DNA of 64,000 nt, taken from the NCBI GenBank assembly GCA_016871495.1, contig VHDF01000013.1, forward strand, positions 1-64,000. Direction: 5' to 3'. Each line of letters opens with the position of its first letter. Positions within the stretch are counted from its first letter, which is position 1. The notes beneath the pieces are model-generated. The model saw nothing but the letters and a program-made list of their open reading frames with translations, searched no databases and was not told the origin of the DNA. Positions 10,277-45,172 of the stretch are shown in pieces. Made by a program: the position numbers and the translations under genes. Source of the DNA: Verrucomicrobiota bacterium (lineage in GTDB: Bacteria > Verrucomicrobiota > Verrucomicrobiia > Limisphaerales > VHDF01).

Positions 10277-10357
10277 GATTCACTCCAAGCGCAAAGTCCT
10301 CAATATTGACGATTCTCCATGAAAAAGCGAGCTTTCCCGAAAACCCGCATATTTCAC

Positions 10358-10491
10358 CGGTGCATCCCGATGTTGCCGGTGATGCAGGTAAGGCGCGTCC
10401 GTCCCGGCGCCCCGCCGGAGCATGATGTTTTGCATCGAGTGGGCGGCGGGCTGGGACAGGCCCGCCCTACCAACAACATCGGGATACACGG
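10358..10491 (+). mobile_element. Family A MITE-like palindromic element, copy 1
   Basis: A 134-bp non-coding element with terminal inverted repeats: left CGGTGCATCCCGATGTTG, right (reverse complement) CCGTGTATCCCGATGTTG. Inside, a second inverted repeat (about 28 bp, GGTAAGGCGCGTCCGTCCC against GGTAGGGCGGGCCTGTCCC) makes the whole element one long imperfect hairpin. It is flanked by a perfect 9-bp direct repeat ATATTTCAC (10349-10357 and 10492-10500), the mark of transposition. It has no coding potential and must be mobilised in trans. It lies between the divergent HlyD operon and the phosphatase gene, where it could disturb a promoter. Confidence 0.9.
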
Positions 10492-10502
10492 ATATTTCAC
10501 AA

Positions 10503-10720
10503 CGGTGTATCCAGAGGTTTTTGGTGACCACGTTGTCATGGTCACGCAGACAGCCCTGTCTGCTTTAGCGCAGGCTGCCCAGCCGGCGGGGCGACGAAGG
10601 GAACCCGGCGCGTGGAGAACACGGAAGGGCCTCGTTCTTCACCCGCCGGGCCGACGGGCCGTCGGCGATACGGCAGGCTGGCAGCCTGCGCCAGACGACA
10701 GACAACCTCTGGATGCACCG
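10503..10720 (+). mobile_element. Family B palindromic element, full-length copy
   Basis: A 218-bp element with inverted ends: left CGGTGTATCCAGAGGTT, right (reverse complement) CGGTGCATCCAGAGGTT. The left part carries two strong nested hairpins, GTGACCA/TGGTCAC (10524-10530 with 10539-10545) and GCAGACA/TGTCTGC (10546-10552 with 10557-10563). Further in, GCGCAGGCTGCC recurs inverted near the right end, so the arms can pair over most of their length. The first ten bases match family A (CGGTGYATCC). I see no flanking direct repeat. It starts two bases after the right target duplication of family A copy 1. With that copy it fills most of the gap 10277-10786, which contains no convincing gene. 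Confidence 0.75.
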
Positions 10721-18888: not shown

Positions 18889-19022
18889 CGGTGCATCCCG
18901 ATGTTGCCGGGGATGCAGGTAGGGCGCGTCCGTCCCGGCGCGCCGCCGGAGCATGATGTTTTGCATCCAGTGGGCGGCGGGCTGGGACAGGCCGGCCCTA
19001 CCAACAACATCGGGATACACGG
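18889..19022 (+). mobile_element. Family A MITE-like palindromic element, copy 2
   Basis: This 134-bp copy has the same inverted ends and internal inverted arms as copies 1 and 3. It is flanked by a perfect 9-bp direct repeat CCCGATCAC (18880-18888 and 19023-19031). The right copy of the duplication contains the signal peptidase stop codon (19028-19030, TGA on the minus strand). The insertion thus hit the very end of that gene and the duplication kept it intact. The element now separates lepB from the LamG lipoprotein gene. Confidence 0.9.
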
Positions 19023-42992: not shown

Positions 42993-43126
42993 CGGTGCAT
43001 CCCGATGTTGCCGGTGATGGAGGTAGGGCGCGTCCGTCCCGGCGCGCCGCCGGAGCATGATGTTTTGCATCCAGTGGGCGGCGGGCTGGGACAGGCCCGC
43101 CCTACCAACAACATCGGGATACACGG
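42993..43126 (+). mobile_element. Family A MITE-like palindromic element, copy 3
   Basis: A 134-bp copy with terminal inverted repeats CGGTGCATCCCGATGTTG and CCGTGTATCCCGATGTTG (right end, reverse complement). It is flanked by a perfect 9-bp direct repeat AGACCCCAG (42984-42992 and 43127-43135). Between the ends, the left arm carries about 11 extra bases and then pairs over about 28 bp with the right arm, leaving a loop near GCATGATGTTTTGCATC. It sits in the divergent promoter region between rimO and the FIST gene. Confidence 0.92.
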
Positions 43127-45041: not shown

Positions 45042-45172
45042 CGGTGCATCCAGAGGTCTTCGGTGACCGGGTTGTCGTGGTCACGCAGACAGTCCTGTCT
45101 GCTGTGGCGCAGGCTGCCCGACCTACGGAGCGACGAAGGAAACCCGGCGCGTGGAGAGCATGGAAGGGCCTG
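45042..45172 (+). mobile_element. Family B palindromic element, left-half copy
   Basis: It starts CGGTGCATCCAGAGGTC right after the trmB stop and follows family B copy 1 through both nested hairpins (GTGACC/GGTCAC and GCAGACA/TGTCTGC) and the segment GCGACGAAGGAAACCCGGCGC. Similarity fades near 45172. The right inverted end is missing, so this copy is truncated and presumably immobile. It may now act as a 3' hairpin for trmB. Confidence 0.65.

Follow-up and report, generated by a model that had tools for sequence, protein, structure and literature searches.

In most accounts, MITEs and REPs form distinct classes, each with its own transposases. According to PMC6382973, MITEAba12 and other bacterial MITEs are about 110-220 bp long with terminal inverted repeats and no transposase gene, carry 9-bp duplications, and are believed to move in trans. 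Stem-loops with a GTAG tag, and the head-to-head dimers that they form, make up a described REP superfamily, whose hosts include PVC bacteria, among them Opitutus terrae; in some species the REP dimers are found within conserved palindromes, and lie regularly inside longer palindromic sequences (both according to PMC3733652). A further system is that of the REP-targeting IS elements (PMC1525189), which include ISRm22, placed in IS4Sa by PMC2266710. Here we describe a family of elements, termed family B, whose sequence is best explained by a MITE with a GTAG-REP-like dimer, arranged head-to-head, in its interior.

The DNA analysed (the window), a stretch of 64,000 nucleotides, belongs to contig 13 in a draft genome of 5.06 Mb. 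A full-length member of family B, 218 bp long and with no gene recognised within, was found at 10503-10720 of the forward strand, starting with CGGTGTATCC and terminating with GGATGCACCG. A half copy at 45042-45171 of the same strand corresponds to the initial 130 bp of this element in an ungapped local alignment. The sequence-only reading had reported two B copies carrying the hairpins GTGACC/GGTCAC and GCAGACA/TGTCTGC; both copies were confirmed, the second at 45042-45171, and both hairpins are present in each, with the differences confined to the loops. The left terminal inverted repeat of the full-length element occupies 10503-10520 (CGGTGTATCCAGAGGTTT, forward strand) and the right one 10703-10720 (CGGTGCATCCAGAGGTTG when read inward, reverse strand). 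Between them on the forward strand lie H1 (GTGACC/GGTCAC, 10524-10545), H2 (GCAGACA/TGTCTGC, 10546-10563), H3 (GCAGGCTG..CAGCCTGC, 10570-10587), one arm of which is mutated to CAGCCGGC in the window copy, a GCCGAC/GTCGGC hairpin (10650-10666), and a GCAGGCT/AGCCTGC hairpin (10673-10689) with a GATAC linker before and GCCA after. The entire B element is one long imperfect palindrome, end to end, and the window copy had a folding z of -8.7, computed as DNA. An Rfam search of the window gave no family above threshold, and plasmid comparison gave no match.

Elements of family A, 134 bp long and each with a perfect 9-bp target duplication, lie at 10358-10491 (ATATTTCAC, at 10349-10357 and 10492-10500), 18889-19022 (CCCGATCAC), and 42993-43126 (AGACCCCAG), and a 77-bp element of a third family with related ends lies at 2486-2562 (duplication TGAATCCTC/CGAATCCTC, 8/9 matching), all on the forward strand. 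The A element at 10358-10491 is separated from the B element by 11 bp. The right end of this B element is atypical (AACCTCTGG vs AACTTCGGG in most copies), with left-type sequence in its place. No target duplication of its own flanks this copy, as ATTTCACAA and AACGACTGA on its two sides match at only two of nine positions. It may have been rearranged or converted.

The abundance of elements with the end CGGTGYATCC exceeds chance. This ten-base sequence occurred 276 times in the 5.06-Mb genome vs 12 times for the reversed control; in the window, where one mismatch was allowed, it occurred 27 times vs 10.3 in shuffles. An initial genome-wide look gave 217 B candidates, of which 40 were scored, and about 1.3 Mb of DNA from the own genome, partly selected for holding B copies, contained 70 B-like places. 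The length of B was 217-220 bp, mostly 219 bp, and an 18-bp terminal inverted repeat, CNGTGYATCCNNRDGTTG, was common to A and B. Target duplications were scored in 1.23 Mb of sampled contigs and at the loci of further copies. These yielded 48 complete elements of family A and 46 of family B, whose ends were refined to the consensus; at least seven of nine matching flank bases were required. A 9-bp duplication was observed in 42 of the 48 A elements (35 perfect; mean with permuted right flanks, 0.9) and in 26 of the 46 B elements (6 perfect; mean, 0.7). It follows that one kind of event moves both A and B. B looks older, however, since its duplications were more eroded, and its copies more divergent, than those of A. 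Both families are gene-less, as judged from length only, and have inverted ends of about 18 bp, 9-bp duplications, and dispersed high copy number, as do MITEs. The proposal that one transposase moves both families, made from the shared ends, is well supported as a statement about the class of transposase by these ends and by the duplications in both families. The check proposed with it, 9-bp duplications at full-length B copies, gave a positive result in the 26 copies and a negative one at the window copy.

The same ends were observed in other genomes. In G013, which belongs to another family of the same order, the ten-base end had 277 matches vs 27 for the control, and the ends sit on 163-bp elements with 9-bp duplications; G003 had 158- and 161-bp elements with the same ends and 9-bp duplications. 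When genome contigs were scanned with GTGCATCCNNAAGTTGTC, the matches listed were mostly from Verrucomicrobia MAGs, and the MAG elements among them were 75-200 bp long with 9-bp duplications. Across genomes the interiors of the MITEs vary, and the ends, C[GCA]GTGYATCC with base 2 mostly not A and T at position 8, and the duplication length are constant.

Matches to B in other genomes were a free repeat of 115-135 bp without CNGTGYATCC ends, with the plan GTAGC-hairpin-(C/T)GTATC-hairpin-spacer-hairpin-GATAC-hairpin-GCTAC. No direct repeat longer than 5 bp was found in the flanks of these repeats. Such GTAG quartets without MITE ends were seen at L126, L128, L129, L240, L299, L322, and other loci. 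The interior of B has the same order of parts, enclosed by MITE ends. Its link to the free quartets consists of architecture, linkers, and short motifs, the best BLAST matches elsewhere being 27-60 bp, and its foot is mostly GTGGC or GTGGTAAC, not the GTAGC that is found in the free quartets, in a 150-bp MITE, and at C7:1545; the feet of family A are of the GTAGGGCG type. The 150-bp MITE, from NC_groundwater_1487 (887-1036 of L227 and 6432-6581 of L269, with 9/9 duplications), has a comparable arrangement nested inside it, built from different stems and with a GAGTTC linker, and its interior was also seen in L295. In K_Offshore_80m, a 199-bp MITE has GTAG hairpins immediately inside its ends. 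Such nesting is apparent in at least two other genomes, namely these two. Free GTAGGGCGCGC hairpin pairs were also noted at C3:17296-17370 and C6:54501-54575 of G000, about 75 bp apart, face-to-face, and without MITE ends.

The two named hairpins were examined over 43 aligned B copies. No two-sided change was observed in either stem; H1 was broken in 22 of the 43 copies, mostly by a C to A change at column 41. Identity in the stems vs the loops was 0.930 vs 0.937 for the first hairpin and 0.973 vs 0.994 for the second. The innermost pair of the GCCGAC/GTCGGC hairpin (columns 162 and 166) read GC in 26 copies and TA in 7, with a mismatch in the other 10; the GC/TA variation may go back to a single inherited event. 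In the long-range palindrome of B, compensatory changes did not clearly exceed those in shuffles. The B copies in their own genome show decay rather than covariation. The sequence-only reading had taken intact stems with changed loops in two copies to indicate that the structure matters and had suggested looking for compensatory changes. None were found in the named stems and stem identity was not above that of the loops, so that the argument failed within B; the pattern in the two copies was a matter of sampling. When hairpin modules were chosen solely by foot, outer GC pair, and linker, however, the inner stems were fully complementary in 22 of 23 modules from other genomes, with seven paired stem types (shuffled partners, 5.3), vs 8 of 16 in the own genome, which equals the null. 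The broader view that hairpins of this type matter is thus supported by the modules in other genomes and not by the named stems of B.

No transposase gene with MITE ends was found in 1.6 Mb (about 32%) of the own genome or in the sampled loci of other genomes, and the neighbourhoods of the IS4 matches in MITE-bearing genomes contained no transposase bordered by MITE ends. Several candidates were rejected. DUF4372 IS4 elements have ends CACTACTGTCCGG or CAGTAGCATCCCACAG and 9-bp duplications, and gave no exact match. L247 has a truncated transposase beside a matching end; its relatives L344, L346, and L347 end with CCATAAGCGNTAAC, and a similar end, GGTTAACGCATATGG, precedes the MITE end in L247, so that the transposase and the MITE are read as separate elements. 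The 1480-bp pair of G013 (L149) was a host gene segment together with a MITE, duplicated in tandem, and the likeness of a G013 IS with the ends CGGTGTTACCCAC (L395) stopped after six bases. L344, L346, and L347 are themselves of the IS4 type and have 9-bp duplications at similar targets (GGGTGGCCG, GGGCTAGCC, and GACAAAGCC). Separately, L135 has at 433-1992 a single open frame in which a DruA-like domain is joined to an ISAs1-type transposase domain.

Neighbouring elements showed a preferred spacing. In 1.23 Mb containing 229 right ends, the left end of another element lay 3-12 bp beyond 21 of them, and 13 of these 21 were spaced by exactly 9 bp, whereas the number of close pairs expected by chance, estimated from end density, was well under one. 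The pattern recurred in 0.37 Mb of additional sequence, where 5 of 7 close pairs had the 9-bp spacing. Examples are C1:25067-25419, C11:26336-26364, and C16:61911-61939 of G000, and 1281-1718 of L015.

B might instead be a MITE that arose by internal deletion of an IS, with incidental hairpins and no link to REPs. All MITE families here are long palindromes regardless of interior, several of them (G013, G003, and Loclat) without GTAG hairpins, and this agrees with such an origin, as does the missing covariation within B. However, the order foot-hairpin-GTATC-hairpin ... hairpin-GATAC-hairpin-foot recurs in the free repeats, a similar plan with different stem sequences is found in MITEs of other genomes, and no transposase remnant was seen inside B; we therefore regard this origin as improbable. 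It is still harder to credit that a RAYT (HUH) transposase spreads B as an element of the REP/BIME type, with the shared ends as part of the REP. The GTAG-type feet and the head-to-head dimer layout would suit this, Y1_Tnp genes were found in 49 of the 58 genomes searched, with 4 matches in the own genome, and GTAG palindromes flank some RAYT genes in the order. Among 30 RAYT loci of relatives in the order, none was linked to the GTAGCGCAG type, and any GTAG palindromes that flanked the RAYT genes sampled there belonged to other types, which speaks against a REP-like core in B; some GTAG families have no linked RAYT gene. What disfavours the RAYT is that B has 9-bp target duplications, which are not expected from RAYT-driven movement of REPs, and that family A has the same ends and cleaner duplications around another interior. 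The MITE enclosing a REP-like dimer thus remains the preferred reading of B. Two further observations concern RAYT genes. About 30 Y1_Tnp matches were found on many contigs of G013, many of them covering only profile positions 6-62, and are perhaps a multi-copy RAYT-like family of truncated or divergent members; and RAYT-type genes lie near GTAG-tagged palindromes (GTAGCCGTGGG.. and GTAGGGCG..) at L414, L420, and L436, a RAYT/REP association in the order.

For the mover of these MITEs, a transposase of the broad IS4 type is the best guess. A narrower assignment, to an IS4Sa-like IS4 transposase (NF033592, DUF4372) such as that of the copy at the end of contig C117 in the own genome, is conceivable but doubtful. 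IS4-family elements of the order duplicate 9 bp, within the 8-10 bp of IS4Sa, and a CATCC box lies close to their tips, as in the ends CAGTAGCATCCCACAG of L382 (duplication AAGCCATGA), CACAGCCATCCCATAG of L365, and CACAGCCGTCCCAGGG of L357, with CACAGTCATCCCACAGCCG upstream of the C117 gene. However, this box is set one base deeper than its counterpart in the MITEs, the IS has A at base 2 where the MITEs mostly have G or C, the published ends CA------T (PMC2266710) differ from most MITE ends at base 2 and position 8, and no copy with the exact MITE ends was found. As for the 9-bp spacing, it could also be produced by recombination or by mobile composites and not by targeted insertion beside a resident copy. 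Indeed, a composite at L030 has its own outer duplication, ATTTTGGGG, with a different inner 9-mer, and L149 is a plain tandem segmental duplication. On the other hand, the members of many close pairs come from different families, A next to B or next to ends of the 77-bp type, and several pairs contain the same or nearly the same 9-mer three times (C1 25067-25419, L015, and C9 22047-22403), the outcome predicted for insertion of the second element into the duplication of the first. We consider recombination or composites a rather unlikely source of the spacing, and insertion next to a resident element is preferred.

Taken together, A and B are probably MITEs moved in trans, with B wrapped round a REP-like dimer and new copies often placed in the 9-bp register beside residents. 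Both are short, gene-less elements with a common terminal inverted repeat, and would be moved by a DDE-type transposase that makes a 9-bp staggered cut at the target and for which the broad IS4 type is the likeliest. The interior of B would consist of two GTAG-type multi-hairpin units placed head-to-head, resembling in architecture the free REP/BIME-type repeat seen elsewhere in the order. New insertions would often fall beside a resident element in the exact 9-bp register, some of them with one common target duplication. Mechanistic certainty is limited because the transposase is missing. More tentatively, these features could reflect a recurrent alliance, in which REP-like dimers are repeatedly taken into MITE ends, giving DNA that two unrelated transposases can spread, and in which the MITE transposase recognises a resident end, inserts at the adjacent 9 bp, and builds arrays with one target duplication. 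Since B combines a MITE with a REP-like core in many copies, with parallels elsewhere that have different sequences, it offers a natural test of REP dimer carriage, and it may show why such dimers have turned up within palindromes. For target choice by the MITE transposase, the tandem spacing of 9 bp provides a clue that can be measured.

In comparison with the systems described above, A and B resemble MITEAba12 in size, organisation, and 9-bp duplications, whereas the ends of MITEAba12 (GGCTTTGTTGC, ISAba12 type) are unrelated, a parent IS is proposed for it, and the available part of PMC6382973 describes no REP-like core of the kind in B. B resembles the GTAG REP dimers of PMC3733652 in its putatively GTAG-type foot, short stem-loops, and head-to-head arrangement; unlike those dimers, the dimer in B lies inside transposon ends with 9-bp duplications, and target duplications around the palindromes are not described in the available sections of that report. 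The IS4Sa-like subgroup of the IS4 family (PMC2266710) has 8-10 bp duplications and ends that start with C, as do the MITEs, and its copies in this order have the TCC box; it differs from the MITEs in the one-base shift of register and at base 2, with no element of matching ends found. Finally, the REP-targeting IS elements of PMC1525189 likewise link DDE transposases to REP palindromes, but there the IS inserts into the REP, whereas here the REP-like unit would lie inside the mobile element.
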